Of a stretch of 64,000 bases of DNA, positions 22,832 to 40,018 are shown in pieces. Under the pieces are notes generated by a model that ran no database searches, had not been told where the DNA came from, and saw only the letters and a program-made list of their open reading frames with translations. Positions within the stretch are counted from its first letter, which is position 1; each line of letters begins with the position of its first letter. Origin of the DNA: Desulfomonile tiedjei (lineage in GTDB: Bacteria; Desulfobacterota; Desulfomonilia; Desulfomonilales; Desulfomonilaceae); contig JACRDG010000117.1 of NCBI GenBank assembly GCA_016218715.1, positions 1-64,000 on the forward strand, written 5' to 3'. Both the position numbers and the translations under genes were made by a program.

Positions 22832-25800
22832 TTACGGTTGGTCATAGAGACGCCCAAAGAAACCGCCCACAGGGAAGTCAATATTAACCGGGACGGTTGC
22901 GAAGGCCATGTAGTTCGGGTTGGGCTGCACGAGCTGGTTGGGCTGGCTCGGCTGGACAGCCGTTACACCCGTATGGCCCAGGTCGCTCACCATGATCGAC
23001 ACTCCCGTGCCGCCGACAGCGTACGGGGCGGGTGTGAAGATCATATTGTTCAAGGCGTTGTCCACATCAACCAGGTTTCCGGTGAACTGCTGGATGGCGT
23101 TCTGGGCTCCCGGGGTGCCCTGCTGGAACGTCAAGCCCGCGGTGCCGGACAGCCTGAGATTTCCTTCACCCGCGTTCAGTGTCACCTGAACCGTGTTTCC
23201 CGGGGCGATGGTCTCGTTCACATCGACGTCACGGACGAGGATCTGGTTTGCGTTCCCCGCGTTGAACAGCAGGTGACCGGTAGAGCTCACCACCTGCAAG
23301 CCGGGGAATGTCGGGTCGCCAACAAGGCTGTTGAAGGTCGGCGGGTCATTGATCGGAGCGACCGTCAAGTTTGCAATCGCCTGCCCCGGATCGATATTCG
23401 GATCCGCGCCGGCCGGAACCGGGAAGTCGGTCAAGTGTCCGATTCGGGTCAGTGTGCCATTCGTCAGCTCTGTCACGGTCACGTCGATCCTGTGTGAGGT
23501 GGCCGCGTCGATGACGGTATTCGCGTTGGTATCGACGTTCGGTGTTGCAGTCAACGTCGCCAACACGTCGTTGATGAAGGGTTCCTGCTGCCAGTCAGCA
23601 ATGGTTCCCGCAATGCGCCACTGAGTATCGGTTCCGGGGTTCAGGTTCGTCACGGTGATTATCCCCGGATGCGGATTAGTTAAATTGAGGGCGAGGTTGG
23701 CACCTTGCGTGGAAAAACCGGATTGCGCCGTTACATCCACCTGTAGGATATTGTTGCTATCCGGGTCTCCGATCCTCAGTGCGTTGGGGAGCGGTATCGG
23801 GGTGTTCAGGTTATTGTTGTCCTCGAGCACGGCCGTCAGATCTGGAATGGTGGTGGTGGGACGACCGTCCGCGACGGTAAAGATCTCCTGGGAATCATGG
23901 GCGACAAATGCCGGGACCCCGCCGGCGCCCGCGATCAGTTTGAAATCAGGATCGGCAATACCAAAGTTGGTGACCTGTTCCATGGTGATGGGATCGGCCG
24001 GACCTGCTGCCACCCTCGTGGCGTCAACCCTGAACAGCTCGCGGGACTTGCCGTCGATGGAGTCAGCCTCGAAATACAGGAAGCGGCTCGCTCCTTGATC
24101 GATCCCTGCTACCAACTTGATATGCGCGTCCGGATGAGCGGAATAGGAGCCGGCAAGGGCGGTCTCAGGGAAATTGGTGATGGCCGCCACGGTGTCAGCC
24201 GCGCCGCCGACACCCGGGGTCACGCGGAATATCTGGTAATCATCCTGGCCGGGATGTCCAGCGGTGCTACCCTGGTTACCTACGAAGAAGAGGTTGCCGT
24301 TGTAGCCGATCAGTTGAGAAATGTCGGGATGCGTGGCGGACAATACAGCCGGAACTTCTGCATTCGCCAGCCTGTCCGTTACCGCGTTGGTCGATACGCC
24401 GACATTGGCGCCGTCGGAACCCCAGATTGAGGGACCGGTGCCGTCGTCGGCCACAAAGTAGAGCCGACCGCCGACCGCGCCTGCGCCGGTCTGGACGAAG
24501 GTCAGATCGTGGATATTGGGATCGGTGTCGGTCCCGAGTCCAAAGTTCGTTATGTTACCAAAGTCACCCACCGCGCCGATAACTCCGGCAGGGGGCGGGG
24601 TCGGGTTGTGGGTTCGCTCAAAGTGGTTGACCGCGTCACCAAGGAAATTGGGGGCGGTTCCGTCGGATCGCCAGATTTCATAGCCGAGCCAGGAGTGAGG
24701 TTCGTTCGCGGTGAAGAATACGTCCGACCTGCCCGGGACCGGCGTTACTTCGGCAATATCCGCATCATAGGCGGGGTAATGGACCACAGCGGCGCCGTTG
24801 AATCCCCAGTGGCCGAATGCGGAGACCGCTCCCTGGTTACCTAGATTGTCGGTTATCGGGCCACCAGGTGCAACTGCCGGGTGGGTTCCGAGGGTGCGCC
24901 AAACCTGAGTCCCCTGAATGTTCGAGTAAGCGGTCGTATCAGCGGTGTCCAGTGTGAAGGGGCTGTGGCCGATAAGATACATCGAGGTATCTCCGGCAGC
25001 AGTCAGTTCCCTGATATTCGGGTTGTACACCACAAAGAAGTTCGCTGCGTTGAACGCGGTCACGTTCCCCGCGTCCGCGCCTAATGAGCCGTCGTCCGTC
25101 ACGATGGGAGTGAGAACCGTTGGTGTCGCCGGTCCGCCGTTCGTTCGCCAGACCTCAAATCCCAGGGCGTCGGGATAAACGGTCTGGGTCGTGAGGCCAT
25201 TCTCTTCCTCGCCTACGAAATAGACGGCGGTATTGGTGGAATTGGCCGTGATTTGCTGAATGTGAGCGCTCGGTCTCGCGAATGGGGTGCCGACGGTGTC
25301 CATGTCATCGTTGAAGTTGGAGACCTGCGTGGTCACGCCGGCTGGGGTGACCTGATAGAGCTGCTGGCCCACATCCGTCGGAGTGAACTGATCGGGATTG
25401 ACTGCCCCTGCATAGACGTTTCCGCCCATGGGGGTGAGCTCGACAATCTGAGGATCAGAAGGGGTGAAGTTGGTCAGAACCGTCTGGCCCGCACCAACAC
25501 CGGTGGCTGCTACGGTAGCAACGTTTGAGGATGCGTAGATTTCCGCTCCTGCACGGATGTTAGGATCGGTCGCGGCAAAATAGGCCTGGCCGCCGATCAC
25601 CGGGAGGAGCGGCTGGCCGTCGGGGCCGATCTTGAAGCTGTTGATGCCCGGATCCTCAGGACCCAGGGCCGTCACGGCGATTTGCTGCAGATGTCCGGGG
25701 ACCTTCTCCAGTTTGATAGCGTCAAGAACCGAGGCGAGCTGGGCCTTGGGATCGGAAGCATACTCCAGCGTCCAGTTCCCCGGCTTGGCGCCGGTCGCAT

Positions 25801-26635
25801 CAGAGCTGGCGAAGACCTGCGCGCCGGTCATCACCGCGACACGGTCCACCAGCGCTTCACCGAGCGCGTCGGCTGCTACGGAACAGTTATAGAACTGAAC
25901 CTGGGCGTGGGGCGCCAGGTTCTTGGCCAAAGCTTTGAATTCAGATCGGTGCTCGCTCGCATTGCTCAGATCGATCTGCTGGGAGCCCATGATGAGGGTG
26001 TCCTTTTCACCATGCCCCGCTATTGCCAGGTGTTCGATCTTCTTACCCGCGGCACTGACCAGCTCGCCGAGTTTCGCGTTGATCGAGTCCAGGCTGTCCT
26101 TCTCCGCACTGTAGAAGACAACCTTGGTGTCAGGAGACGCTGCCGCTGCAATCGCGTCTTTTCCTTCCAGACTATCCTGGATCAGGACAACGTCCAGGCC
26201 GCTGTGGCTCGAAGGATCAGCTTTGTGTGCGGCAGATGACGCGAGATGCTCGACATGGGCCGCTGCATGGGTTGCTGTATGAAGAGCGGGGGAGGGAGCA
26301 GGGGCCGCATGAGCTGCGTCGGCGGGAGCGTGGAAAGCCGCGGAAGGGGCAGGTTTCGCAGCCACATGAGGAGCCGATGCGACGGGCACGGGATCGTGGC
26401 CCACAGAGGCCTGGTGGACAGGCTTGTGGTTCCATCCTTCACCCACGAGGGCGCTCGAGATACCGTAGAAGGCCCTCGGATCCTCGGCAGACCCGAAACT
26501 TGTCGGATGCTCGCTGAACGAATGGCCGTGCAACGCGTGGTCCACGGCAGCGTCCAGGACGATGCGCTCCTCGAGAGCCTCGAAAATCATCTTTCGCCCG
26601 TTGACGGCGGGCTTGTTCCAAAACCGGGATTTCAT
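22832..26635 (-). CDS. large LEPR/DUF4347 surface or secreted protein with WRxDGT-type repeats and cadherin-like C-terminus
   Basis: 1267 residues. It opens with a LEPR-like sorting or processing motif, FEALEERIVLDAA (18-30), instead of a classical signal peptide. After an Ala/His/Pro-rich linker comes a DUF4347 domain (about 146-294) with HLAIAGHGE (His208) and FYNCSVA (Cys251). Residues about 330-950 hold repeated beta units ending in YEIWRSDGT, FEVWRTNGG or RELFRVDAT, then cadherin-like repeats (VLEDNNNL, DVDVNET) near the C-terminus. This is the architecture of adhesin-like exported proteins. AGGAG six bases upstream fixes the ATG. Likely exported by the diverging HlyD/TolC-type genes at 28.7-34.9 kb (inference), perhaps under a candidate riboswitch at 26988-27090. 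Confidence 0.8.
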   Translation of the reverse strand: MKSRFWNKPAVNGRKMIFEALEERIVLDAAVDHALHGHSFSEHPTSFGSAEDPRAFYGISSALVGEGWNHKPVHQASVGHDPVPVASAPHVAAKPAPSAAFHAPADAAHAAPAPSPALHTATHAAAHVEHLASSAAHKADPSSHSGLDVVLIQDSLEGKDAIAAAASPDTKVVFYSAEKDSLDSINAKLGELVSAAGKKIEHLAIAGHGEKDTLIMGSQQIDLSNASEHRSEFKALAKNLAPHAQVQFYNCSVAADALGEALVDRVAVMTGAQVFASSDATGAKPGNWTLEYASDPKAQLASVLDAIKLEKVPGHLQQIAVTALGPEDPGINSFKIGPDGQPLLPVIGGQAYFAATDPNIRAGAEIYASSNVATVAATGVGAGQTVLTNFTPSDPQIVELTPMGGNVYAGAVNPDQFTPTDVGQQLYQVTPAGVTTQVSNFNDDMDTVGTPFARPSAHIQQITANSTNTAVYFVGEEENGLTTQTVYPDALGFEVWRTNGGPATPTVLTPIVTDDGSLGADAGNVTAFNAANFFVVYNPNIRELTAAGDTSMYLIGHSPFTLDTADTTAYSNIQGTQVWRTLGTHPAVAPGGPITDNLGNQGAVSAFGHWGFNGAAVVHYPAYDADIAEVTPVPGRSDVFFTANEPHSWLGYEIWRSDGTAPNFLGDAVNHFERTHNPTPPPAGVIGAVGDFGNITNFGLGTDTDPNIHDLTFVQTGAGAVGGRLYFVADDGTGPSIWGSDGANVGVSTNAVTDRLANAEVPAVLSATHPDISQLIGYNGNLFFVGNQGSTAGHPGQDDYQIFRVTPGVGGAADTVAAITNFPETALAGSYSAHPDAHIKLVAGIDQGASRFLYFEADSIDGKSRELFRVDATRVAAGPADPITMEQVTNFGIADPDFKLIAGAGGVPAFVAHDSQEIFTVADGRPTTTIPDLTAVLEDNNNLNTPIPLPNALRIGDPDSNNILQVDVTAQSGFSTQGANLALNLTNPHPGIITVTNLNPGTDTQWRIAGTIADWQQEPFINDVLATLTATPNVDTNANTVIDAATSHRIDVTVTELTNGTLTRIGHLTDFPVPAGADPNIDPGQAIANLTVAPINDPPTFNSLVGDPTFPGLQVVSSTGHLLFNAGNANQILVRDVDVNETIAPGNTVQVTLNAGEGNLRLSGTAGLTFQQGTPGAQNAIQQFTGNLVDVDNALNNMIFTPAPYAVGGTGVSIMVSDLGHTGVTAVQPSQPNQLVQPNPNYMAFATVPVNIDFPVGGFFGRLYDQP

Positions 26636-27172: not shown

Positions 27173-28261
27173 CTAGAGTGGCGAGGCGAAGCCCACTGCC
27201 ACATTTCCACCGGCGCTGAAGGAGAGCCGGTTCAGATCCACATCGAACGGCACGGATACTGATACTGCCGGGAGCGCGACTGGGCCTGTTCCGGCAAAGC
27301 GATAGGCATCCATGTCCTGTTCGCAATGAGATGTCATCATATTGATCATGGCAAAGCCACCCACGGTCACACTGCAGGAAACCTTCATCCCGTAATAGAG
27401 GGATGCTTCCACCAGAGTGCCGAACCGTGAGCTACCCACCAGGGAGTCGCGAATCGGTCCCCTGTCAGGAACGCCGCCGTTCCCGAAGGTCAGCCCGAAA
27501 TTGTGGTAGGTGCTCGTCCACGGCGCCCCGATGATCCGGAACATCATCCCGCTGTCGCTCCCCACGAACGCGAACTCCGCGCCCGCGTACGGTTGGATGC
27601 TGCTCAGGGTCAGGTTCCCCTCATCTCCGGGATTGGAGAGGAGTGGGATGATCGCGGTGCTCCCCATGGAAACCTCAAACAGGTCCCACCGGCAGCCGCC
27701 GAGCAAAGAGATACCCTTGCCCATACACAGCGCCACGTTCCCGTCGACGATGTTCCAGTTGTACCGACTCGTGTCGAAATCCCGGTTCCCCGGCGCGCCG
27801 ACATTGATCGTGGTGCGCGTGTGCATGAGCTCGTTGGTGGGGAAGAGGTGCCGGTACTCGGCTCTCAGGGAGACGCTCTCGGACGCCTCCATACGCGCCG
27901 ACGCGCCCACCCAGATGCCGTTCAACACGAAGTCGTGCTCCTGGGTGGTCAACTGGATCAGGTGGTGTCCCCGCGTGGCGAACTTGATTTTGCCCGGATC
28001 GTTGTTGATCTGATACCCCACCATGCCGCCGATGGAACCGTTTTTCGGCGGCTCACACATCTGCGGCGGACAAGTGGGCATGGGTAGGCAAGAGGGATCC
28101 ATTCCAGGCATCGCGCCGGGTTGCCCCATCATGGGCAGCGGACCGCCCGGTTGAGGCATAGCCGATATCGGAGGCCCCGGCGTCCAGCCTTGAGAGTAGA
28201 CTGCCGGCGCGCCTAGGCAAGAAACCAAGGCCAAAATCATTAGGAATACAACTCGTCTCAT
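27173..28261 (-). CDS. outer-membrane beta-barrel-like protein
   Basis: 362 residues from ATG 28261 (GGAGG five bases upstream). A clear signal peptide (RRVVFLMILALVSCLGAPAVYSQ) is followed by a Pro/Met/Gly-rich stretch with four cysteines and then by alternating hydrophobic and polar strands with aromatic ends, ending in a strand FSAGGNVAVGFASPL, as in outer-membrane barrels. The sequence resembles no named porin that I can identify; a BBP7-like or DUF-type barrel is possible. It is transcribed from its own promoter at about 28346-28374 and precedes the adhesin gene on the same strand. It may serve as an outer-membrane anchor or partner for the surface protein, which is inference from position. 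Confidence 0.65.
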   Translation of the reverse strand: MRRVVFLMILALVSCLGAPAVYSQGWTPGPPISAMPQPGGPLPMMGQPGAMPGMDPSCLPMPTCPPQMCEPPKNGSIGGMVGYQINNDPGKIKFATRGHHLIQLTTQEHDFVLNGIWVGASARMEASESVSLRAEYRHLFPTNELMHTRTTINVGAPGNRDFDTSRYNWNIVDGNVALCMGKGISLLGGCRWDLFEVSMGSTAIIPLLSNPGDEGNLTLSSIQPYAGAEFAFVGSDSGMMFRIIGAPWTSTYHNFGLTFGNGGVPDRGPIRDSLVGSSRFGTLVEASLYYGMKVSCSVTVGGFAMINMMTSHCEQDMDAYRFAGTGPVALPAVSVSVPFDVDLNRLSFSAGGNVAVGFASPL

Positions 28262-28296
28262 ATTGTCCTCCACGGCTTATTGCAGCACGCTTGACC

Positions 28297-28325
28297 AAAA
28301 AATAAGCGAGCTTAATTCACTTATT
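28297..28325 (-). terminator. terminator-like hairpin within the leader of the outer-membrane protein gene
   Basis: On the minus strand a 9-bp stem AATAAGTGA/TCGCTTATT, 7-base loop, then a T tract. It lies between the promoter and the start codon of the outer-membrane protein gene, so it could attenuate it. Confidence 0.4.
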
Positions 28326-28345
28326 TGAGCATGTTGCGCTGATTC

Positions 28346-28374
28346 GTTATATCATAGTGGGAGGTCTACTTCAA
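28346..28374 (-). promoter_or_regulatory. sigma70-type promoter for the outer-membrane protein gene
   Basis: TTGAAG (complement of 28369-28374) and TATAAC (complement of 28346-28351) lie 17 bases apart on the minus strand, about 80 bases before the start codon. Confidence 0.5.
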
Positions 28375-28677: not shown

Positions 28678-28706
28678 TTGACATTAGCCTTAATACCGGA
28701 TATATA
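28678..28706 (+). promoter_or_regulatory. near-perfect sigma70 promoter for the export operon
   Basis: TTGACA at 28678-28683, a 17-base spacer, and TATATA at 28701-28706. Transcription would begin about 28713, giving a leader of roughly 20 bases. The TTG of its -35 box could be mistaken for a start codon. It should drive the genes from 28732 onward. Confidence 0.65.
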
Positions 28707-28731
28707 TCGCCACGAATTGAGGTATTTTCTC

Positions 28732-29613
28732 ATGATTGACGCTTATCATATGAAATCGACAGCGCGTATCGTCCTTGCCATCGCCTGCTTCGCCGCCGCG
28801 GCTGTCCCTGTAGGTGACTCCTATGCTGCCGGTATTACCGGCAAGGAACGTCCGGTAGCGGCCTTGACCAAACAGGCCCCCTCCGGGCCGCGGGAACAGG
28901 TTGCGGACCCGTCGGTTACAGTGCCGATCAAATCTGCAGTGATTGTCCCCTTTCGGGCTGCAGACGTCCCAGCAGATGCTCGCGGAATCATTACTGTCTT
29001 CAATTTCGAGAAGGGTGATCTGGTCCAGAAGGGGCAACCGATCGTGGAAATCTCCAAAGACCGGTACGAGATCATGGTGGAGATGGCCAAGACCAAACTC
29101 GACGGCCTGAAGCAATCCCTCAAATTTGCAGAAGAGAGCCTGGCGTCGAAAAAGGAAATCTACTCGAAACATTACGGAACGCGCCAGAAGCTCCTCGAAG
29201 CGGAGGCCGAGCTATCGACCATTCGGCACAAGGCTGAGGAGGCCAAGCGGGAATTGCAGCTCGCCAAGATCAACTTGCAGTCCTGCGTGGTCCGCGCTCC
29301 GTTCACCGGCTATCTCGTGGAAAAGTACAAAGAAGCCCACGAGGCGGTAAACCAGTTGGACAAGCTCTTTCGCATCGTAGATACCCACAATGTCTACGGC
29401 GTGGCCAATGTGCCGGAGAATCAGCTCGAGAGATTCCGGAAGGGGGCGCGGGCCTCGTTCGTCGACTCACTGGGGACCACCTACGCGGGGAGCGTCGACA
29501 AGATCGAACCGGTAATCTGTCCTGAATCGAAGACTGCGAAGGTCCATCTCCTGATTCAGAATCCCCAGTTCGCACTGAAGGTGGGCATGACAGGCGCGCT
29601 GTGGTCGGAGTAG
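28732..29613 (+). CDS. HlyD/RND-type periplasmic adaptor protein (membrane fusion protein)
   Basis: 293 residues from ATG 28732 (GAGG nine bases upstream); ATG 28750 is also possible and places the signal peptide KSTARIVLAIACFAAAAVPVG right at the front. The protein has a membrane-fusion-protein layout: an N-terminal lipoyl half-motif (FNFEKGDLVQKGQPIVEI), an alpha-helical coiled hairpin (KTKLDGLKQSLKFAEESLAS, then LRHKAEEAKRELQLAKINL in part), the second lipoyl half (VVRAPFTGYLVEKYK) and a beta-barrel domain. It should link an inner-membrane partner to the TolC-like gene that follows. Three adaptor-type proteins occur in this one operon, but no ABC or RND pump is present. Confidence 0.85.
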   Translation: MIDAYHMKSTARIVLAIACFAAAAVPVGDSYAAGITGKERPVAALTKQAPSGPREQVADPSVTVPIKSAVIVPFRAADVPADARGIITVFNFEKGDLVQKGQPIVEISKDRYEIMVEMAKTKLDGLKQSLKFAEESLASKKEIYSKHYGTRQKLLEAEAELSTIRHKAEEAKRELQLAKINLQSCVVRAPFTGYLVEKYKEAHEAVNQLDKLFRIVDTHNVYGVANVPENQLERFRKGARASFVDSLGTTYAGSVDKIEPVICPESKTAKVHLLIQNPQFALKVGMTGALWSE

Positions 29614-29753
29614 CAGGGGGTTCGATTTCCAGGCCCGGTCCGATGGCATACCCGAAGAGCGCTCGAACGCTTGCGCGACGGACCGCGGGTTTGGCTGACG
29701 ATCTCCCTCCCTCTCAGTCCCTGAATCCTCTCTTGGACCGCCGAGTGAGTTTG

Positions 29754-31250
29754 ATGGTAAGAAGCTACGTGAACTTCGCTTTGCTCCTGCCTGTTCTCGC
29801 CTGTCTCCTGGCTGGTGGATGCCAATGGGCTAGAATGGCGCAGGCCCCCGTGGATACCGGCTTTGACCGTCCGGCTGAGGCCGGCGCTGTTCCGCCGAGT
29901 TTGCGTGAGGATGTTCGGCAGGCTCCCCTGCTTGCAGCGCAAACGGCTCGGGGAACGGATCAGTCCGGTCGGGCCGCCTCCAGGACCACTGGCCGGCCGT
30001 ACACCCTGGAGGAGTGCCGGGCGATCACTCTCAACAGCAATCCGGACATACAAGCGGAGTTCTGGGAAGAGAGTGCCAGAGGTTCGCTGGCATCTGCGGC
30101 ACGGGCGCGCATGCTCCCGCATCCTTCGCTGGTTGGGGAATTCAGTAACCGGAACAACCACCGCTGGCCCTACGACAGTACGGACGATATGCATTGGTAT
30201 GACGTGCTGTGGAGGTCCACCTGGCGGTATTTCCTGGAAATCAAGTGGAGCCCCACCGACGCGCTCACCAGCTATTACCTGTCCCAGAATCAATGCAATG
30301 ACAGCGTCAAGGCGCGCTATCACCGCGTGAGACTGATTCAAAAACTTCTGGCGGGCGTCGACGCGGCATATTTCCGTCTCCTCGGTCTCCAGCAGTGCCT
30401 GCCCCTCGCAGAGCGCCTGAGCCGCATTCGTACTAATGTGGCCCGCGAGACGTACGAGCTGAGACAGGGCCGATTGGCCGACCTGGACGAGTATCACCGA
30501 ACCGAGGAACGAGCTTCCGCGGCCCGTTTCCGGCTGTCCAAGATGCGGGTGGAACTGGAAAGACAGAAGATCATCCTTTCCAGCCTCATGGGGCTCCCCC
30601 CCAAGAGTTGCCCTGAGGGGCAGTTTTTCGTAACAGGCGCTCTGAGCGTTCCGCACTACCCGCAAAACCCCTGCGACCTGGAAGTGCAGGCACTCAAGAG
30701 CCGTCCCGAGGCGTGCATCGAGGGGCTGAATCAGCTCAATTCCTTCAACGAGGTCAGGCGCACCCAGCTCAAATACTTCCCCAAGGCGACCGGTTTCCTG
30801 CGGTACGGCCAAGACAACGCATATAAGCGGCAGGACTGGAATATCAACGACGCCGGCCTGTACGTCTCTCTAGATCTCCTGGACTGGTTCACCAATTTCA
30901 AGGAAACCTCGGCTGCAAAAGCGAATGACCTCAAGACCCAGCAGCGGATGGCTGCTGTTGCCCTTGCCGTCGCGTCGGAGGTGAGGGTGTCCGCGCTGCG
31001 ATGCCTTGAATCCACGGAAGAGCTGCTTTCGCTCGAGGCGTCCATCGAAAGGGCGCAAAAGCATCTCAATGTGGCCAAGGGGCGGGCAAAAGCCGGCATG
31101 CTCGAAAAGGTCGCGGTAGAGGACGCGGAAGGGAACCTCTTGCAGGAGCAGATGGAACGGATCCACGCGCTCGGAGAAGCCAATGCCAGAGTTGCCGAGT
31201 TGCAATGCGCGACGGGAACCAATTACGGCGACGGGGCCTCGTGCCCGTAG
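29754..31250 (+). CDS. TolC-family outer-membrane lipoprotein
   Basis: 498 residues from ATG 29754; the open frame continues upstream without a good start. The N-terminus RSYVNFALLLPVLACLLAGGC is a lipoprotein signal with lipobox LAGGC. A proline- and charge-rich linker leads into a TolC-type body with TLEECRAITLNSNPDIQ, long coiled helices, and repeated paired motifs (two long helical hairpins), as in outer-membrane efflux proteins. It would form the trimeric exit duct. It follows the adaptor gene by 140 bases and precedes the M50-HlyD gene by 34 bases. The weak ribosome site leaves the exact start open. Confidence 0.85.
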   Translation: MVRSYVNFALLLPVLACLLAGGCQWARMAQAPVDTGFDRPAEAGAVPPSLREDVRQAPLLAAQTARGTDQSGRAASRTTGRPYTLEECRAITLNSNPDIQAEFWEESARGSLASAARARMLPHPSLVGEFSNRNNHRWPYDSTDDMHWYDVLWRSTWRYFLEIKWSPTDALTSYYLSQNQCNDSVKARYHRVRLIQKLLAGVDAAYFRLLGLQQCLPLAERLSRIRTNVARETYELRQGRLADLDEYHRTEERASAARFRLSKMRVELERQKIILSSLMGLPPKSCPEGQFFVTGALSVPHYPQNPCDLEVQALKSRPEACIEGLNQLNSFNEVRRTQLKYFPKATGFLRYGQDNAYKRQDWNINDAGLYVSLDLLDWFTNFKETSAAKANDLKTQQRMAAVALAVASEVRVSALRCLESTEELLSLEASIERAQKHLNVAKGRAKAGMLEKVAVEDAEGNLLQEQMERIHALGEANARVAELQCATGTNYGDGASCP

Positions 31251-31284: not shown

Positions 31285-33396
31285 ATGCCAGGTCACCCCA
31301 AACTGAGACCGGACTTGAAGGTCTCCACGTATCGAGAGAGCGACGGGACCGAAACCTTCATCCTGAAGGAGCCGGTGTCGGAGAAATTCTTCCGACTCTC
31401 CCGGTATGAATTCGAGTTGCTCAAGGCGCTGGACGGGCAGGTTTCGGTCGAGGAAGCGGTCGAGCGGCTCAAGTGGAGGGGTTCGTACTATCCGCTGGAT
31501 GAAGCGCAGACGATCGTGGGCAGGGCTGCCCAACACGGTCTCGTCATGGGAACCGGCGCGGGAACGGCCAAGTATCTGGGCGAGATGAAAGAGCGTGTGC
31601 AGCAGGCCATGAAGACCCGTCGTTTCTCCAGTTTCTATTTCATGAATCTGCCGTTGTGGAATCCGGACAATTTCCTTGCGCGGACTGTCTGGCTCTTTCA
31701 ATTGTTGTGCAACCGGTGGACCGCGATCCTTCTGGCAGTGGCGACTCCCGGCGCGATTTACTGTGTCATCGACGGCCTCCCCCGGTTGGAAACCGAATAT
31801 CTTTTCTTCTTCACCTGGCAGAATTTGATGTGCCTGTGGGCCGTCATAGTCGTGACGAAGCTCGTCCACGAGTTTTCTCACGCGTATACCGCCAAGAGCT
31901 TTGGCCTGCACGTGCCTCAGATGGGTGTGGCGTTATTGCTCTTTCTCCCTTGTCTGTTTTGCAATACCACTGATGCGTGGCAACTGGCCGACCGCAGGCA
32001 ACGTATGGCCATCAGTGCCGCGGGTATCCTCGCCGAGACGGTTTTGGCGACAGCCTTCACGTACGTGTGGTACTTTACCGAGCCTGGAATCGTGAATTCC
32101 GTGGCCTTCTACCTGATGACGATTTCCCTGGTCTCCACCTTCATCTTTAACGCGAACCCGCTGATCAAGTTTGACGGCTATTACGTTCTCATGGATTACC
32201 TGAGAATACCCAACCTCGCCACCAAGTCCATGGAACACCTGAAGTACCTGTTCATGGACCGCGTCATGGGAGTCCCTCACGCTGCCATACCTGCACGAAG
32301 CGCCAGGGAGACCGTGATCTTCAGCGTGTACGGGGTCAGCTCTTTTCTCTACCGCATCAGTCTGTATTTCGGCATCGTTGCGGGGATTTACTATCGGTTC
32401 GACAAGTTTCTGGGGATTCTGCTGGCCATTCCAGCGCTCGTGTTGTTTGTGATCCGGCCGTTGATACGAGGGATCACGATCCTCTATACCAAGCGCGCCG
32501 AGTTACGTCCCAGGCCGAAGGGGGCCATTGTATTCGCGCTGCTCCTGGTCGGGTTGTTTGGGGGATTCTTCATCTCCTGGCCGAGGCACTCCGTTTACCG
32601 CTGCTATGTGGCTTCCGGCGCGGCCCAGAAGATAACGATTCCGCTCCACACGTCGGTCAAAGAGGTTTTCGTACGTCCCGGCAGCAGAGTGAAAGAGGGC
32701 GACCTCCTCTTCACGCTGGACACCACGCGACTTGACCTCGCCCTGGCCACGCGGCAGATCGACCGCGAGATCGTGGCAAAGCAGGTCGATTTGTTGCTCC
32801 TGGACGACGAAAAGCGCGCGTTGGCCGACAGCAGGAAGATCGAATTGCTCAAGATCGACGACGACATCGCGAGAACCCGCGAAAAACTCGCCCTGGCAAA
32901 CGAGGGGATTCGAGCGCCGTTCGACGCTGTCGTCACCACGATGGACTACCGGCTGCAGCGCGGGTTCGAGCCCGGCGAAGGGGTGGTCGTGGGTGAACTG
33001 GAGACCATGGACGGACGCGTGGCCCAGGCACTTATTCCCGAAGAGGACCTCGGGAAGGTTCGCACAGGACAAGTCGTGAAAATATGGCTCCCATCCAGTG
33101 GCGGACACGTTTACCGCTTGCCGGTGGAAGGCGTGAGACCGTACAGCGAGCGCAACCTCTCCGATAGCCCCTTTTCCAGCAGGGTCGGCGGAGACGTGGC
33201 CACGGAAGTCAAGGGCGAGCACGAACTGGACTCACCTCTGCGCGCGTACTACACCTGTTCGGTGCGCTTTCCCCACGAGGAAGAGCTACCCCTGGGAGTG
33301 ACCGGGAGGCTGATCGTCCCCGCGGTGCCGCGTAGCATGTTTGCCCATCTCGCTGATCACCTCGTACAGGTTTTCCACCGGGAGTCGCTGCTCTAA
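31285..33396 (+). CDS. PqqD-like domain, M50-type site-2 metalloprotease and HlyD-type adaptor fusion
   Basis: 703 residues. Residues about 8-85 look like a PqqD-type recognition domain (RPDLKVSTYRESDG, FRLSRYEFELLKALDGQVSV). A membrane domain follows with zinc-protease motif HEFSH at 195-199 and NPLIKFDGYY at 291-300 (third ligand Asp), the pair typical of M50 proteases. After TM helices (about 385-430) comes a HlyD-like periplasmic part with both lipoyl halves (VKEVFVRPGSRVKEGDLLFTL; IRAPFDAVVTTM) and a coiled coil between. This protein resembles the putative peptide zinc metalloprotease/HlyD family. It may process or recognise an exported substrate at the inner membrane (inference). Confidence 0.8.
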   Translation: MPGHPKLRPDLKVSTYRESDGTETFILKEPVSEKFFRLSRYEFELLKALDGQVSVEEAVERLKWRGSYYPLDEAQTIVGRAAQHGLVMGTGAGTAKYLGEMKERVQQAMKTRRFSSFYFMNLPLWNPDNFLARTVWLFQLLCNRWTAILLAVATPGAIYCVIDGLPRLETEYLFFFTWQNLMCLWAVIVVTKLVHEFSHAYTAKSFGLHVPQMGVALLLFLPCLFCNTTDAWQLADRRQRMAISAAGILAETVLATAFTYVWYFTEPGIVNSVAFYLMTISLVSTFIFNANPLIKFDGYYVLMDYLRIPNLATKSMEHLKYLFMDRVMGVPHAAIPARSARETVIFSVYGVSSFLYRISLYFGIVAGIYYRFDKFLGILLAIPALVLFVIRPLIRGITILYTKRAELRPRPKGAIVFALLLVGLFGGFFISWPRHSVYRCYVASGAAQKITIPLHTSVKEVFVRPGSRVKEGDLLFTLDTTRLDLALATRQIDREIVAKQVDLLLLDDEKRALADSRKIELLKIDDDIARTREKLALANEGIRAPFDAVVTTMDYRLQRGFEPGEGVVVGELETMDGRVAQALIPEEDLGKVRTGQVVKIWLPSSGGHVYRLPVEGVRPYSERNLSDSPFSSRVGGDVATEVKGEHELDSPLRAYYTCSVRFPHEEELPLGVTGRLIVPAVPRSMFAHLADHLVQVFHRESLL

Positions 33397-33416
33397 ATCG
33401 GGTTCATGGTGAAAAG

Positions 33417-34901
33417 ATGCTGATAACTCAACAAACCGGACAAGAAGTGGACGTGCCGTGCCAGCAACCGGGGCAGGCGGAGCTGCTCAATCGAGCGCAA
33501 AGCTTGGCTGTGGGCTTCGAATTTGCCCAAGCGGTCGCGAAGGCTCGGAACCTCGACGAAGTCTATCTCCTCCTCACCAATGACATACGCTGCCTGATCG
33601 AATTCGATCGCTCCTTTCTCATAATCCATCTCGGCAACGCGTCCCGGTTTGTCGCGGCCAGCGCACTCATTGCTCCGGAAAAGAAATCCCGGTTCTATAA
33701 AGAATTGACCAGACTGGCGCCGATCCTCACGGAGCTGGACAGGCCGGTGCTTACGTCCAGGGATTACATCGACCGACTCGGGGAGCACGGCGTCGTAGAG
33801 TCTGTGCAGGCAGGGCTGAAATCTTTCATGGATTTCTCGGAATCCACTCATCTGTTCTGTCTTCCCCTAACCTTTGAGGGCGCTGCCGTCGGTCATTTGC
33901 TCTTCGAATTTGTCGACGACAATCTCCCCGACCGGGAAGGAGTGATGGTTCTGGGGAAACTGGAGACCATTCTCGCTTCAGCATTGGCCCAGAAGTGGCT
34001 TGCCAAGACCAAGCCGTCCGTGGCCGGATTGCTGCGTCCCGGTCCTCAGGTGGAGGTCAGCACGCTCACCGCCGTGGCACGGAAGCTCAAGTACGTCGGC
34101 CCAGGCGTCCTGGTTCTCCTGGTAGTGCTGTTCTTGATCCCCTTTGACCATACAGTGGGGGGCGAGGCCGAAGTTGTGGCGGGCGAGCGCCACGTCGCGT
34201 TCTGCATGATGGACGGTCCGATCCAGAAGATCCACGTGCAGGAAGGGTCAACGGTGGCTGCAGGCGCCGTATTGGCCAACATCGATCCACGAGATCTGGA
34301 ATTCAAGATAAACATAGCTCAGCGGGAATTCGACATCCTGACGAGGGAAGTGACCATCCTCAGCGACGGCGCGGGCGTTCATCCCTCAAAGTTGGCTCAG
34401 GCGCAATTGACCGAGCTGAACCGGAAAAAGAAGTTCAAAGAATTGGAGCACCTGAAGTCGCTGCGCGAATTTCTCGAGGTAAAGTCTCCGGTCGCTGGCG
34501 TGGTCGTCACCAAGCACGTCGAAACCCTTGTGGGCAAGCGATTCTCCCCTGGCGAACCCTTCTGCGAGGTCCTCGTCCGGAGTGAACTCTGTGCGGACGT
34601 CTACGTCCCTGACGACCGGATAACCCACGTGAGGCCCGGCCAGGAGGTTACGGTCCACCTGAACAGCGATCCGGTCAAAGGCTACCCGTTGAAGCTGAAG
34701 GAAATAGCCCCCAGAGCCGAAGCTCTGCCGCGTTTCGGCAACGTCTTCCGTGCCCGAGCCGAATTCCCCAATGCGCCCAGCTCTGCAATGGTCGGCATGA
34801 AAGGGATTGGCAAGATTCACACCGGAACGTCCAGTCTCTGGTCGCTCATCACCGATCGGCTCGCCACCCGCTGGAACCAGTTCGCCGCCTCTTACCTGTA
34901 A
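33417..34901 (+). CDS. GAF-like domain, transmembrane helix and HlyD-type adaptor fusion
   Basis: 494 residues. The first 200 residues form a cytoplasmic domain of GAF type (LLTNDIRCLIEFDRSFLIIH, LPLTFEGAAVGHLLFEF). A single TM helix (about 227-243, GVLVLLVVLFLIP) leads to a periplasmic adaptor: lipoyl half IQKIHVQEGSTVAAGAVLANI, a coiled coil (about 300-345), lipoyl half LEVKSPVAGVVVTKHVE, and a beta-barrel with VPDDRITHVRPGQEVTVHL. The layout suggests a sensory input coupled to an export adaptor, a combination not known to me as a named family. It begins 20 bases after the M50 gene and is probably in the same operon. Ribosome site is weak. Confidence 0.8.
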   Translation: MLITQQTGQEVDVPCQQPGQAELLNRAQSLAVGFEFAQAVAKARNLDEVYLLLTNDIRCLIEFDRSFLIIHLGNASRFVAASALIAPEKKSRFYKELTRLAPILTELDRPVLTSRDYIDRLGEHGVVESVQAGLKSFMDFSESTHLFCLPLTFEGAAVGHLLFEFVDDNLPDREGVMVLGKLETILASALAQKWLAKTKPSVAGLLRPGPQVEVSTLTAVARKLKYVGPGVLVLLVVLFLIPFDHTVGGEAEVVAGERHVAFCMMDGPIQKIHVQEGSTVAAGAVLANIDPRDLEFKINIAQREFDILTREVTILSDGAGVHPSKLAQAQLTELNRKKKFKELEHLKSLREFLEVKSPVAGVVVTKHVETLVGKRFSPGEPFCEVLVRSELCADVYVPDDRITHVRPGQEVTVHLNSDPVKGYPLKLKEIAPRAEALPRFGNVFRARAEFPNAPSSAMVGMKGIGKIHTGTSSLWSLITDRLATRWNQFAASYL

Positions 34902-34905
34902 GACG

Positions 34906-34925
34906 AGGGGACTTCTTAGTCCTCT
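34906..34925 (+). terminator. hairpin after the GAF-HlyD gene
   Basis: Stem AGGGGACT/AGTCCTCT (one G-T pair) around a TCTT loop, three bases past the stop codon. There is no T-run, so termination is uncertain. Confidence 0.3.
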
Positions 34926-35333
34926 GTGGCACAAGTACGTCGCTGTTTTGCGAGCAAGGTCAACTGCACCTGTAGCGGGTGCCGGCGAGCACGGCAGTGA
35001 CGTGCGAACCGTACCGCTCACAGTTTATCTGGCTGAGTTACCTGTCGCGAACACGTCGGAGGGTGCGGTTCGCTCACCACACCCTCCGATGGTTTTCGCG
35101 ATCCCCCCATCGCATCTGCGCAATAGTGCACTTGGTTTTGAGAAGCACCTCGCAAAGCTCTCCCCAAGAAACTCTTCTCCATATTCCTACTCCAAGAATC
35201 GGCTCGAACCGCCTGCTTCTAACAGGAAAATCTCCGAATCCTCATTCTCTCTGAACAGGAATAGTCACGTATAGGGGGTGTAAGTCTCGCACGCAAGAGG
35301 CGAAGCCACTTTGTGCAATCTGGAGGGACCCCT
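34926..35333. other. intergenic region of about 410 bases
   Basis: Separates the export genes from the next plus-strand operon. An ACGTATA-containing sequence occurs at about 35268 and again at 35337. No gene, convincing promoter or riboswitch was recognised. Confidence 0.3.
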
Positions 35334-37823
35334 TTGTCACGTATACAGCTCACGCGGCGCGGCGTACCGGAGAAGCGGCATTCCCTGGCGCTGGAGCGCA
35401 TCTGCGAGGTCCTCGGAATCCCGGGATGCCGGACCGCGGGATTCGTGGAGTCGCTCCCCTTTTCCCTCAACGACACGACCTCCGGGTCGGAAACCGAGTT
35501 GCAGGCCGCAGTATCCGGACCCAGGGGGAGCGTCGACCTTCCCATAACCATCGAAAGATCCAACTACTTCGCCAACCTTATCAAAAGGGCTGCCGCGGGG
35601 GATACCTCACGCAGCGTCCTCACGGACCTGGAGCGGTACCTCGACAGCAATCCCGGGGAGGTGTGGGAAAATAGCTGGGTGAGGTTTCCTGCGGGCAAAC
35701 TGAGCCCATTCGCCCGGGGAGTCCTGGATCGCGATCTCCTGCGCAGCAAGAGCTGCTCAGGCGGCCACTTGCGAGCTGATTCCGGAAAATTCGTGTTCTG
35801 CCATCGAGGAGAGGAACATCTTCGCATACCGATCAGCTATCTGATAAAACTGGCTCTGGCAGACATTATCGGCTCACAGGACGGCCTTCCACGTTCGATC
35901 GAGGAGACCGGCCGTCGCCTCATGCGGCACCTGTTGAACGACAATACCTCTCCCGAGACATTCTCGTTCTACGTTGTGCCGGTACGGCCGGAGAGCGGGT
36001 CCGGCAAAGCGCTGGCGCGAGAGACTTCCAAGCGGTTCCTGCTGACGCAATTACTCGTCATGTATGCCAATGAGAAGTTTTCGCTGAGAGAAGCCGGCCA
36101 GCAGGCTCTCCTCTACTTCTCTCCGCATCCTCCCGTCCGCCAGAAGCAGTTGAATGAGAGCATCTCGGATTCGTTCTATCGAGAACTCTTCATGAGTCCT
36201 TGTCTCTCCGGATGGGACAACGGCGAAGAGAAGCACGCATACATGTGCCTATGCCACCAGGTCCTCAGCCGAAGTCAGTTGAACGCGGTGGCCAAGTTGA
36301 GGGAAGCGGGGATCATGACAAGGAATTTGGTCGTGCTTCCCACAGTGTCGAATATTAGCCTTGCCAACAACGGGACACACGTAAGCCTCGGGAGCGTCAA
36401 ACTTACCCGGATCCAACAGGACGAACGGTCGGGATTCGACCGCCGCCACGAGAAATACCTGGGTGACCTGGTCATCAAGATCGTGGAGCATTTTCTGCCG
36501 CTTTTCGTAGGAACCTACAGCGCCGCACCGTACCGGCTCGACTTTACGGACTTTCACCCGGAGCAGGTCCTCGGGTTCTTGCCGCACGAACTCGACTATA
36601 CGCACCTGAGGATGCTCTGGCGGCGATGGAAGAAAAAGGCCAGCCTCAAGGTATTCGGCCAACCCGTCACCCCTTTCGGGCTGAGGTCACTCGACCGTCT
36701 GTTGAGTGCGGTGTTTTGCATGAGGGGCGATTTCATTCCGGATTTTCGGCTCGTTGACTATCCGGTGAGCCTGTTGAGCACGGATCGCAGCCCGGCCTTC
36801 GACGGAACCCTCGACAGTGAAAATAGGCTCAAGCAGGATCTGGCGGAACTCGGGGTGTTCGACACCAAGATGGCTCTGTACGAACTCTATAGGCTCCGGG
36901 AACACGCGAGAGCGGGATTCTCCGGCTTTGAGGGACGCCATTACAGCTTGTTCCCCGGCCTTACCGATGACATGGGCTCCGCCGTGGACCTCCAGGTCCT
37001 TGTTACGGCCCTGGCATTCAAATACGTCCTGCAAGGATCGGTTACCCATGCTCACATTCCCGATGATCCGCACATAGAGAGCGAGCGACGGCAGATCTTC
37101 TTCGGCGCGGCCATAGGGGTCCCCACCTTTTACGTAAGAGAGGACACCGGTAACCATTTCTTGAGAGATCTGGTGCACCGGACAAGCGGAATTCGCTCGA
37201 GCCGACGATACCCCGGATATCTGAGGGTCTACAATCGACAATTCCGCCGTGCGCTGGCCGAAGTACTGGTGACCGACGCCGCGGACCTCGTCGAAATGCT
37301 CCATTTGGCCGAAACGATGAAAGATCTCACCGCGAGGCTTGAAGCACCCGAAGAGGTGTCTGCAGAGGGGAAGCTCGTGCGCGGTATCCTGGCTGCATTG
37401 GGTGTGGCCTCTCCGATGAGCGTCGAGGCACAGGAGTTTAATCTCGCGGCGGAACGATACTATCGGACGAGCTTGAGGGCGCGACACATCGAGGAGGCGT
37501 TCGCCTTCCTGGAGCGAGATTTCAGGACCGGTAACGCAGGACTGATTGCAGGCGATAGCGAACATGCCGCGGCCATTCGGTATGCCCTGAACGATCGGAG
37601 CCCATTGGACTTCCTTCATGCGGTCAAGCAGGGTGTCTTGAGCGAAGGGATCGAGTTGGAGGAACTGGTAAAGCTCATCAACCTGCTTCTCGCGAACACG
37701 CGGCGCGACATAATGCACATGAAGAGGCTTTCCGAAAGGAGCGAGACGGATGATCGCGATCCGGCACCAATATGTAGATCGGGAGACGGGCCAAATCTGT
37801 ACGGAACCCCTGTTCTGGGATAG
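35334..37823 (+). CDS. large protein of unknown function, paired with the PSD-like gene
   Basis: 829 residues from a TTG at 35334 that has GGAGGG six bases upstream. I recognise no domain. It lacks a signal peptide and obvious membrane segments. Visible traits: a charged N-terminus, several long amphipathic helices, cysteines in pairs around 310-330 (MCLCHQVLSR), and a helix-rich C-terminal third (NTRRDIMHMKRLSERS). The stop lies 74 bases past the start of the PSD-like gene, so the two are translationally linked. It might help process, position or regulate that enzyme, or act on the same envelope substrate (inference from context only). Confidence 0.65.
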   Translation: MSRIQLTRRGVPEKRHSLALERICEVLGIPGCRTAGFVESLPFSLNDTTSGSETELQAAVSGPRGSVDLPITIERSNYFANLIKRAAAGDTSRSVLTDLERYLDSNPGEVWENSWVRFPAGKLSPFARGVLDRDLLRSKSCSGGHLRADSGKFVFCHRGEEHLRIPISYLIKLALADIIGSQDGLPRSIEETGRRLMRHLLNDNTSPETFSFYVVPVRPESGSGKALARETSKRFLLTQLLVMYANEKFSLREAGQQALLYFSPHPPVRQKQLNESISDSFYRELFMSPCLSGWDNGEEKHAYMCLCHQVLSRSQLNAVAKLREAGIMTRNLVVLPTVSNISLANNGTHVSLGSVKLTRIQQDERSGFDRRHEKYLGDLVIKIVEHFLPLFVGTYSAAPYRLDFTDFHPEQVLGFLPHELDYTHLRMLWRRWKKKASLKVFGQPVTPFGLRSLDRLLSAVFCMRGDFIPDFRLVDYPVSLLSTDRSPAFDGTLDSENRLKQDLAELGVFDTKMALYELYRLREHARAGFSGFEGRHYSLFPGLTDDMGSAVDLQVLVTALAFKYVLQGSVTHAHIPDDPHIESERRQIFFGAAIGVPTFYVREDTGNHFLRDLVHRTSGIRSSRRYPGYLRVYNRQFRRALAEVLVTDAADLVEMLHLAETMKDLTARLEAPEEVSAEGKLVRGILAALGVASPMSVEAQEFNLAAERYYRTSLRARHIEEAFAFLERDFRTGNAGLIAGDSEHAAAIRYALNDRSPLDFLHAVKQGVLSEGIELEELVKLINLLLANTRRDIMHMKRLSERSETDDRDPAPICRSGDGPNLYGTPVLG

Positions 37824-38757
37824 CGCGATCGGGTGGCTCTATTCGGACGCGCGAGAAACGGGATCCAGGCTATACCGGGCATTCACCTCGGCACGAGCTT
37901 CCCGGATGCTCGCGTTGCTCAACTACGACTTTCCGGTGAGTCGTGCCACCAGGAGGTTTCTCAACGACTGCGGCACTGACCTGACCGAGTCGGTTGAAAG
38001 ACCGGAGAGGCTGAACACAGCGAGAAAGCTTTTTGAACGTCGGATTCGCTACTGGGAATGCCGCCCCATGCCGATTCAGCCCGAATTCGTGGTCGCTCCC
38101 GCCGATTCGAGGGTCATCGTCGGGTCGTTGAGCGAGCGATCGGCGCTCTTCCTGAAGGATAAATTCTTTGATTCCGAGGAGCTTCTCGGGAGCAACAAGT
38201 CGCAATGGATGGCAACCTTCGAACAGGGGGACTTCGCGATCTTTCGGCTGACTCCGGACAAATACCATTACAACCACGCACCGGTCGCGGGTGTTGTCGA
38301 GGATTTCTACGAGATCTCGGGAGGATACCACTCGTGTAATCCGGGAGCGGTTGTCAGTGTGGTCACACCGTATTCGAAGAATAAGAGGGTGGTGACCGTC
38401 ATCGACACTGAGGTACCCGGCGGTTCGGGAGTGGGCCTGGTAGCGATGATCGAGGTCGTTGCGCTGATGATCGGGGATATCGTCCAGGCGTACAGCGAAA
38501 AGGAATACGAAGACCCTCGGCCTGTCGTCAAGGGAATGTTCTTGAAAAAAGGCGTGCCGAAGAGCCTCTACCGCCCTGGAAGCAGCACCGACGTTTTGCT
38601 CTTTCAGAAGGGGCGCGTCGGATTTGCGGAAGACTTGATCCGGAACATGGGGCGACCCGACGTCCAAAGCCGGTTTTCCGTGGGCTTCGGCCGATCCCTG
38701 GCAGAGACCGATGTCAAGGTCCGGTCTCTGATCGCAATCCGGCGGGAGGAAGTCTAG
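37750..38757 (+). CDS. phosphatidylserine-decarboxylase-like protein (pyruvoyl-type)
   Basis: 335 residues. The family landmarks of pyruvoyl PS decarboxylases are present: the VAPADS stretch with Asp119 (usually PADG), the FFDSEELLG block, FRLTPDKYHYNHAPVAG with His173 and His176, and a self-cleavage-type Gly-Ser-Ser-Thr at 277-280 (canonical LGST). The enzyme would release CO2 from phosphatidylserine to make phosphatidylethanolamine; a different acceptor is possible because GSST and PADS deviate from the canonical forms. GGAG eight bases before the ATG supports the start. It overlaps the 829-residue gene by 74 bases. The housekeeping psd gene is presumably elsewhere. Confidence 0.7.
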   Translation: MIAIRHQYVDRETGQICTEPLFWDSAIGWLYSDARETGSRLYRAFTSARASRMLALLNYDFPVSRATRRFLNDCGTDLTESVERPERLNTARKLFERRIRYWECRPMPIQPEFVVAPADSRVIVGSLSERSALFLKDKFFDSEELLGSNKSQWMATFEQGDFAIFRLTPDKYHYNHAPVAGVVEDFYEISGGYHSCNPGAVVSVVTPYSKNKRVVTVIDTEVPGGSGVGLVAMIEVVALMIGDIVQAYSEKEYEDPRPVVKGMFLKKGVPKSLYRPGSSTDVLLFQKGRVGFAEDLIRNMGRPDVQSRFSVGFGRSLAETDVKVRSLIAIRREEV

Positions 38758-38820
38758 GAGGCTGTTGCGTAACGCAATGTTTCCCCGACAACGCGCTACG
38801 ATGCCGGTCCATGGGGAAAT

Positions 38821-38854
38821 GACAGGCAGGGCGCCTGTCCCACCAATACAGCCA
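38821..38854 (-). repeat. copy of the GGTGGGACAGGC intergenic family
   Basis: On the minus strand it reads GGCTGTATTGGTGGGACAGG and continues to CTGTC, closely matching 9887-9922. It is in the gap between the PSD-like gene and the Lgt-like gene. Confidence 0.55.
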
Positions 38855-38965
38855 GGGAGGCCGCGGTGGTTGACACAAACCGCGTCCCGCGAGAATCCGC
38901 GACCGTATTTACCCATCCGAGGACCTATCAGGGCAGTGACACTATGCTTAGAGGAGATTTGTTGT

Positions 38966-40018
38966 ATGTGGGATGCAGCGTTTATTTCCGCAATGGGTCT
39001 GTTGTTCGCGATGCTCCTTCGGTGGGCGTGCAGAACGTTGCCGGGAGAGGACTGGCAGATAATGGCCGCCGTTCCTGTTGCCAAACGAGACTCGGCCACC
39101 TGGGTCGGGGCCAACTTGACCTATTACGGCCTCTTCGTTTCGGGTTCGTGTGTATTGGGGGTGACCCTGTTTCTCGTGCTGATGGGGGCAGTGGGCTGCC
39201 AGGCAAGGATCTCTCTCCTTGTCGTGCTCGTTCTGCTCGGGCTCTGTGTGCCGGCTTCCAACGTTCTCGCTCGTCTCGTCGAGAAGAAGCATCATACGCT
39301 TACCATAGGTGGCGCTTCCTTTCTGGGCGTGCTCGTAACGCCAGGCATCCTCTGGTGCGCAAATGCTATTGCCGAGTCCGCAGCTAATCTGCCCGTGCCG
39401 ATGGTCCCGGCGCTTGCCTCTCTTTCCATCGCGTACGCCATAGGTGAGGGGGTGGGTCGGCTGGCTTGCATAAGCTTCGGCTGTTGTTACGGGAAGCCGT
39501 TGGCCGACTGTTCCCCATGGATACGCCGGGCCATCGGAGCTCACGGTTTCGTGTTCAGCGGTTCCACCAAGAAGATAGCGTACGAGGGAGGGTCGTTGGG
39601 CAAAGAGGTGGTCCCCATACAAGCCATGACTTCAGCTGTTTTCCTCGGCATCGGTCTCGTCTCCATGTTCCTTTACCTCGGGAACCACCATTTCGCTGCC
39701 GTAGCGGTATCCATCGTGATGACGCAAACATGGAGGGCTCTCTCCGAAACCTTGCGGGCTGACTATCGGGGTGGAGGAACGTTCTCCGCGTATCAGGTCA
39801 TGGCAGTCGTGGCAGCTATCTACACGTTGGGTCTCTTATGGATCTTGCCGGCGGAGCCGGTTCCTCCTGCGAGTCTGGCTGCAGGGGTGACCGCTCTGTG
39901 GGATCCGGTGGTGCCTTTCGCGCTACAATCGCTCGGGCTGGCGGTCTTCTTGTTTTCAGGCCGCAGCCGGGTGACGGGGTCGACCCTCTCGTTTCACGTC
40001 CTCCCCGACAGGCTGTAG
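38966..40018 (+). CDS. Lgt-like (prolipoprotein diacylglyceryl transferase family) membrane protein
   Basis: 350 residues, about 8 membrane helices. Residues EGVGRLACISFGCCYGKPL echo the Lgt signature GRLGNF-NGELYG, with the arginine kept and the Asn replaced; the later VVPIQAMTSAVFLGI resembles the HPTQLYE region loosely. Lgt moves diacylglycerol from phosphatidylglycerol to the lipobox cysteine of prolipoproteins. The divergences suggest a specialised acyl or diacylglyceryl transferase rather than the housekeeping Lgt. The start at 38966 is favoured by GAGGAG nine bases upstream, though the frame is open 67 codons further. It follows the PSD-like gene, a neighbour that also concerns phospholipids. 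Confidence 0.6.
   Translation: MWDAAFISAMGLLFAMLLRWACRTLPGEDWQIMAAVPVAKRDSATWVGANLTYYGLFVSGSCVLGVTLFLVLMGAVGCQARISLLVVLVLLGLCVPASNVLARLVEKKHHTLTIGGASFLGVLVTPGILWCANAIAESAANLPVPMVPALASLSIAYAIGEGVGRLACISFGCCYGKPLADCSPWIRRAIGAHGFVFSGSTKKIAYEGGSLGKEVVPIQAMTSAVFLGIGLVSMFLYLGNHHFAAVAVSIVMTQTWRALSETLRADYRGGGTFSAYQVMAVVAAIYTLGLLWILPAEPVPPASLAAGVTALWDPVVPFALQSLGLAVFLFSGRSRVTGSTLSFHVLPDRL

Follow-up and report, generated by a model that had tools for sequence, protein, structure and literature searches.

A candidate leader-guided export cassette for large surface proteins, built around a protease-adaptor fusion, in Desulfomonile tiedjei and other bacteria

How does a large surface protein with no Sec-type signal leave a Gram-negative cell, if the genes beside it encode periplasmic adaptors and an outer membrane duct and no pump? 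The question is raised by a locus of Desulfomonile tiedjei in a stretch of 64,000 nucleotides (contig JACRDG010000117.1, positions 1 to 64,000), hereafter the window. A DUF4347 protein encoded on the minus strand lies next to a plus-strand cassette, whose central gene encodes a fusion, M50-HlyD, of three parts: a predicted leader-binding domain of the type found with ribosomally synthesised and post-translationally modified peptides (RiPPs), termed RiPP recognition element (RRE), a site-2 protease core and a HlyD-type adaptor domain. The answer which we consider slightly more probable than not is that the cassette is a dedicated export system for large surface proteins, guided by an N-terminal leader and driven by a SecA-type motor. 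The genes and domains concerned are:

22832-26635, minus strand: leader-tagged DUF4347 surface protein, presumed substrate (1267 residues; Pfam DUF4347, 1.6e-29)
26549-26575, minus strand: leader core LEERIVLDA, residues 21-29 of the DUF4347 protein
25745-26191, minus strand: DUF4347 domain with caspase-like (clan CD) predicted fold, His208/Cys251
28732-29613, plus strand: periplasmic adaptor (membrane fusion protein, MFP) with signal peptide (HlyD_D23, 1.4e-19)
29754-31250, plus strand: TolC-type outer membrane lipoprotein (OEP, 1e-21; lipobox-like ...LLAGGC by eye)
31285-33396, plus strand: M50-HlyD fusion of RRE, site-2 protease and adaptor (703 residues; Peptidase_M50, 4.6e-8)
31291-31551, plus strand: predicted PqqD-like/RRE leader-binding domain, residues 3-89 (fold match 6jx3_B)
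31810-32205, plus strand: site-2 protease core, residues 176-307 (HExxH at 195-199, N-x-x-P...D-G-Y)
32512-33354, plus strand: MacA/HlyD-type adaptor domain, residues 410-690 (fold match 9qgy_G)
33417-34901, plus strand: GAF/transmembrane/HlyD adaptor, here GAF-HlyD (HlyD_3, 1.6e-15; GAF by homology only)

Pfam places HlyD/CusB families in three open reading frames (ORFs) of the window (28678-29613, 31285-33396 and 33417-34901) and the OEP (TolC) family in a fourth (29601-31250), and in these traits the cassette resembles type I secretion. Pump families of the ATP-binding cassette (ABC), resistance-nodulation-division (RND) and major facilitator superfamily (MFS) types were matched by none of the ten window proteins scanned. 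An earlier note on this DNA had described the same set, three HlyD-type adaptors, a TolC-type lipoprotein and an M50 protease with no pump gene among them; its ORFs lie at the coordinates that it gave and Pfam bears out the families.

The predicted structure of the M50-HlyD protein (predicted local distance difference test, pLDDT, 86) falls into three parts. The N-terminal part (residues 3-89) adopts the winged helix of PqqD and lasso-peptide B1 proteins and aligns with B1 holding its leader (6jx3_B; Z 10.7, root-mean-square deviation (rmsd) 2.7, 82 residues aligned), and thereby the domain qualifies as an RRE by predicted fold. The protease core (176-307) aligns with an RseP orthologue (7w6y; Z 11.1, rmsd 2.8, 130 aligned) and combines this predicted fold with the HExxH and NxxP...DG motifs of site-2 proteases; the zinc-site residues H195, E196, H199, N289, P292 and D297 do not vary in any of 46 aligned M50-HlyD rows. 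The adaptor part (410-690) aligns with a MacA complex (9qgy_G; Z 16.6, rmsd 8.8, 242 aligned). The PqqD-like domain of the earlier note is thus retained on the predicted fold but not on Pfam, which matched PqqD in 7 of 25 M50-HlyD N-terminal domains scanned, the window's own not among them. No NCBIfam model exceeded its cut-off for the window fusion or for two distant M50 fusions scanned; NF041824, the daptide intramembrane protease, aligns over residues 22-387 at 167.8 with a cut-off of 300. The genome (5.55 Mb in 124 contigs) holds five M50-HlyD copies, the other four being 49-54% identical to that of the window. A GAF-HlyD gene follows in all five cassettes, and adaptor and TolC are present in three (window, C81 and C88), the adaptor preceding TolC in C81 and C88.

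The window's DUF4347 protein carries, about 20 residues from its start, a short motif that recurs in the same genome with the consensus FEQLEERIVLDA and more generally has the form LE-x-R-x-hydrophobic-hydrophobic-D/S-A/G. A profile of ten N-termini marks twelve such leader places in the genome, which has ten DUF4347 matches; two additional places are on C72, at the contig edge, and on C9, in a frame of 335 residues. E, R, I, V, L, D and A are unvarying in ten proteins of the genome, nine of them picked through DUF4347 and one through the motif, and L, E, R, D and A are unvarying in 18 rows across phyla, 17 of which came from a motif search whose pattern fixed L and R. The best 11-residue hydropathy window reaches at most 1.45 in eleven leader proteins versus at least 2.85 in seven exported controls, and hence the leader proteins have no Sec-type hydrophobic stretch. 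Two further cassettes of the genome adjoin leader proteins, one of 975 residues upstream (C88) and one of about 2,400 residues directly after GAF-HlyD (C101). The leader is also found on small proteins of 334 residues (L139, 4618-5622) and 475 residues (L023, 2679-4106), which argues that it is a tag and not a trait of giants alone. A frame of 15,080 residues with the leader LENRVLLSG lies on contig C1 of genome G153 (L269), with a TolC-like gene before it. A contig labelled Bordetella parapertussis in a metagenome-assembled genome, a doubtful species label, has M50-HlyD and a leader protein of 3,152 residues (L172). Like the leader, the LEPR-XLL domain (NF012209) is a short N-terminal motif on giant proteins, and LEERIVLDA is a variant that scores 13.1 bits, under the cut-off of 17; of the "LEPR/DUF4347 protein" of the earlier note the DUF4347 half (103.2, gathering cut-off of PF14252 24.6) therefore stands and the LEPR-XLL half does not as modelled. 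We found no described function for LEPR-XLL in the open-licence literature of PubMed Central (PMC).

Fusion and leader go together genome by genome. Among 395 genomes sampled from the phylum, with M50-HlyD called at E <1e-140 and DUF4347 above its cut-off, 21 have M50-HlyD and 16 have DUF4347; three genomes with the protease part only (G015, G118, G253) and a second weak M50 match in G089 were excluded. DUF4347 is present in 14 of the 21 genomes with M50-HlyD versus 2 of the 374 without (Fisher p 6.6e-19, uncorrected for kinship and too small since the genomes are related). In all 14 genomes that have both, the DUF4347 protein bears the leader, which was read by eye in G153, G203, G252 and G362, where the third letter was disallowed by the search pattern. 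It was not seen in the two DUF4347 genomes devoid of M50-HlyD, G145, where the frame start is uncertain, and G165. Because three cassette genomes devoid of DUF4347 (G333, G385 and G387) have a leader-bearing giant beside the cassette, M50-HlyD appears to be partnered with the leader more than with DUF4347. The suggestion of the earlier note that the surface protein or its LEPR-type motif is the partner or substrate gains support from this co-occurrence across genomes; the lack of co-occurrence that the note had named as a refuting result was not observed.

Leader and fusion also diverge together. In 28 loci that combine leader, DUF4347 and GAF-HlyD, the distances between leaders correlate with those of the RRE, M50 and HlyD parts at 0.77, 0.79 and 0.65, and those of the DUF4347 domain of the same proteins at 0.47, 0.45 and 0.42. 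In partial Mantel tests the leader tracks the RRE given M50 (0.21, p 0.008) and M50 given the RRE (0.34, p 0.001), and HlyD adds nothing (-0.17 given M50); GAF-HlyD follows the HlyD part most closely (0.43 given M50). The pattern, taken from sequence distances, fits a leader that is read by RRE and protease.

More widely, a scan of GTDB with one genome per species yielded at least 589 candidate stretches, of which the best 80 loci were kept; only 46 of these have at least 5 kb on both sides, many being cut by ends. The 80 loci are mostly from Planctomycetota and Pseudomonadota, and also from Nitrospirota, Verrucomicrobiota, Lentisphaerota and Desulfobacterota. GAF-HlyD is present in 70, an adaptor in 62, TolC in 30 and DUF4347 in 18, and giant repeat proteins recur as neighbours in at least 18. 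A leader-like motif was labelled in 20 loci. With a stricter leader expression it is found in 19 of 536 non-overlapping ORFs of at least 300 residues and in none of the reversed N-termini; control loci (L019 and L022 removed as unclean) have it in 0 of 85 ORFs, a weak difference from 19 of 536. LEPR-XLL exceeds its cut-off in 9 of 14 genomes of these loci, with planctomycete frames of up to 11,906 residues; of 14 control genomes 7 have a match at an E of 1 or below, and in one of these it exceeds the cut-off. In at least seven loci (L156, L157, L163, L182, L184, L189 and L214; six planctomycete and one labelled Chthoniobacter) a small conserved gene lies beside M50-HlyD, with FCRVTGSPEELI.DFGL in the visible rows; presumably it resembles DUF3467.

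What could drive export is suggested by a distant sister class of cassettes. Ten loci of nine phylum genomes have a gene for a SecA paralogue inside the cassette, and among the 80 GTDB loci six have one (L153, where it is a fragment, L157, L181, L199, L204 and L218). In ten aligned paralogues the ATPase motifs are kept, but of the helical scaffold only the first part is present; the wing, the two-helix finger and the C-tail, named after the general domain scheme of SecA, are missing, one row having a masked stretch. No NCBIfam model, the curated SecA2 models included, exceeded its cut-off for the two sister-class SecA proteins scanned (L204 and L062). SecA is counted two or three times in 9 of 17 other cassette genomes, that is, outside the window's family. 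A SecA of 998 residues some 7 kb from the L160 cassette was taken as housekeeping and dropped, and L056 was dropped as the same record as L142. On a tree of M50-HlyD (quick method) the SecA label needs 5 changes versus 14.3 in shuffles, and the leader follows the same division: its eighth position is S in 7 of 7 SecA-bearing loci, or 10 of 10 genomes or records on adding G153, G203 and G208, and D in 27 of 28 rows with no SecA in view, A in L055 being the exception (Fisher p 1.2e-6; two of the 28 rows are one record and several loci are cut). Since the leader-bearing loci with SecA form almost a single clade, the S/D split amounts to one or few events; beside the planctomycete SecA loci no leader was read. 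The earlier note had the M50 fusion or the GAF protein replace or gate the pump, and replacement is unsupported as stated: with a SecA paralogue encoded in sister-class cassettes, a SecA-type motor is the better guess.

Put together, the RRE, which would form the cytosolic end of M50-HlyD, would bind the leader, and the site-2 protease core would clip it, or use it for gating, at the inner membrane. In the periplasm the fused HlyD domain, GAF-HlyD and the separate adaptor would assemble and dock on the TolC-type lipoprotein, through which the chain would exit N-terminus first. The motor of the sister class would be the finger-less SecA paralogue of the cassette; in the window's class SecA would act in trans, the single housekeeping SecA being the likeliest candidate.

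Several observations weigh against this proposal. The motor in the window's class is a guess, as only one SecA was found in each of the five genomes of the window's family. G387, a SecA-bearing genome, has another cassette (L076) whose 19.9 kb contain no SecA. Two of the five cassettes of the window's genome (C80 and C101) are devoid of adaptor and TolC nearby. DUF4347 does not reach its cut-off in seven of the 21 cassette genomes, and in four of these, G105, G117, G281 and G389, no leader giant was seen, the giant running off the contig end in G105 and G389. The RRE, given M50, also weakly tracks DUF4347 (0.16, p 0.046) and GAF-HlyD (0.15, p 0.042), so its signal is only somewhat specific, and shared ancestry can inflate partial Mantel correlations. 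Finally, an unlinked HlyB-type ABC exporter on contig C32 could act as motor in trans.

This exporter leads to the strongest of the alternatives, that a separately encoded type I ABC exporter moves the giants, leaving to the cassette no more than maturation of the leader or retention of the N-terminus inside the TolC duct; we regard this as unlikely. The C32 protein (L257) of the window's genome is a true member of the HlyB family (TIGR01846, 1027.6 bits, over the cut-off) and is preceded by an ORF that by eye resembles RTX proteins, and a Vibrio giant protein is described with LEPR-XLL at its N-terminus and an RTX domain at its C-terminus (PMC10868602). Against this, the cassette often has its own TolC and its own adaptor (30 and 62 of the 80 loci), and a pump just outside it, which was also looked for, is ruled out as an ABC exporter for the window and the 80 loci. 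In the latter, 15 ABC-type ORFs occur in 13 loci, some cut by the contig or locus end, their distance to the M50 gene ranging from 1.6 to 9.5 kb and the nearest being on the opposite strand; as they have only 171 to 367 residues and are at least 1.6 kb away, no ABC exporter belongs to these cassettes. The ABC_membrane matches that were typed in the cassette-bearing family members G312 (3 of 3) and G386 (3 of 4) are MsbA/HepA-like, not HlyB- or C39-type, and the single match typed in G102 is NHLM-type. Within the family, cassette and type I ABC thus do not go together, but such an exporter may still act in the window's organism.

Somewhat less plausible still is that in the window's class the M50 membrane domain itself is the conduit and that no ATPase takes part, the chain being pulled by the proton motive force or by folding outside. 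The single SecA of the five family genomes and the lack of an ABC exporter in the 80 loci speak for it, but the sister class retains a SecA motor in its cassette, and we know of no site-2 protease that serves as a translocon. A parallel is the intramembrane protease PrsW, which has been put forward as a conduit for extrusion and processing (PMC3482391).

Efflux pumps often have members of the HlyD and TolC families, but it is highly improbable that the giants reach the periplasm through ordinary Sec or in some other way and that the cassette beside them serves small-molecule or peptide efflux, given the eleven leader proteins of the window's genome that have no hydrophobic signal stretch, the joint occurrence of leader and cassette, and the pump families unmatched in the cassette.

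The leader-guided, SecA-driven export that we prefer shares traits with several known systems. With type I secretion (HlyB-HlyD-TolC) it has in common HlyD-type adaptors, a TolC-type duct and very large surface proteins as presumed cargo; it differs in that the HlyB homologue is on another contig and no ABC exporter is in the cassette, the presumed signal is N-terminal, the inner membrane part is the RRE-protease-adaptor fusion and the sister class has a SecA paralogue. As in the accessory Sec (SecA2) pathway, the sister class has a second SecA beside its presumed substrate, whereas the cassette has a tripartite duct, the paralogues are without wing, finger and C-tail, and none was found in the window's family. 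RiPP leader handlers (PqqD/RRE, daptide and the HExxH proteases YydH and LiaK) likewise combine an RRE fold with an intramembrane HExxH protease, but here the fusion has a HlyD domain and its partner proteins are hundreds to thousands of residues long. The pumps named in a review of tripartite systems are ABC, RND and MFS (PMC8277102). In the open-licence PMC literature we found no description of an RRE/M50-HlyD export system. Each part belongs to a known family; to our knowledge the assembly of RRE, site-2 protease and SecA around a HlyD/TolC duct corresponds to no known secretion system. We put forward tentatively, at slightly less than an even chance, that this is an undescribed kind of Gram-negative secretion, with a RiPP-like leader, an RRE/site-2 protease/adaptor fusion, a TolC duct, cargo reaching some 15,000 residues and a finger-less SecA or, in the window's class, the housekeeping one, and that it spans Desulfobacterota, Pseudomonadota, Nitrospirota, Planctomycetota, Verrucomicrobiota and Lentisphaerota.

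The DUF4347 domain itself may be a self-processing domain. In a model of the protein's N-terminus the DUF4347 part mostly exceeds a pLDDT of 90 and the leader part is low. The best match is the type VI effector Tce1 (9qpe_G, Z 15.3), followed by CHAT (8tl0_C, Z 9.2), a C11 protease (6n9j_A, Z 7.5) and legumain and caspases (Z 6.3 to 7.3); the caspase-like predicted fold with a His/Cys dyad assigns the domain to clan CD. Among 18 aligned rows Cys is present in all and His, counted by eye, in 15. In the Nitrospirota loci L159, L185 and L213 Cys is kept and Glu replaces His. In P. aeruginosa the putative type VI effector PA0256 carries a DUF4347 annotation (PMC8262886). An ELWxxDGT repeat match under the cut-off was seen in the window's DUF4347 protein.

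Two further proposals of the earlier note were upheld in part. For its GAF/transmembrane/HlyD fusion the HlyD assignment holds; GAF was undetected in the window's protein (33417-34901) and is called through homologues, three of its four paralogues having a GAF match under the cut-off and one none, and two of four distant homologues having a clear match (3.8e-13 and 8.7e-11) and two none. Divergent promoters between surface and export sides correspond to promoter-like sites that are present but weak (2 in the window versus 0.7 +/- 0.8 in shuffles).

The range of 22832-40018 which had been taken as one system is too wide. The genes at 35313-40018, encoding a protein of 836 residues (829 in the earlier note), a PSD-like and an Lgt-like protein, were rejected as part of the exporter and form a three-gene unit of their own, likely a lipid-related pathway. 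Relatives of the 836-residue protein occur in 7 of 30 genomes searched, always with PSD-like and Lgt-like neighbours (two of the seven matches hold one internal stop); the units outside the window lie on contigs other than those that carry cassettes, and G330 has a unit but no cassette. Between giant and exporter lies one more gene:

27173-28261, minus strand: outer membrane-like protein of 366 residues with signal peptide

A search of the ORFs called in the own-genome stretches and in the phylum loci gave no homologue of this protein, the 80 GTDB loci being outside this search, and it was left out of the proposed system. The window also encodes two ankyrin-repeat proteins (39838-41178 and 62837-63451).

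If the proposed system is real, it would account for the exit of giant surface proteins that have no Sec signal, including very long bacterial proteins, and the LEPR-XLL and DUF4347 annotations would gain a function. It would also mean that a tripartite duct can be coupled to a SecA-type motor instead of an ABC, RND or MFS pump, and its leader would offer a simple handle for finding cargo.

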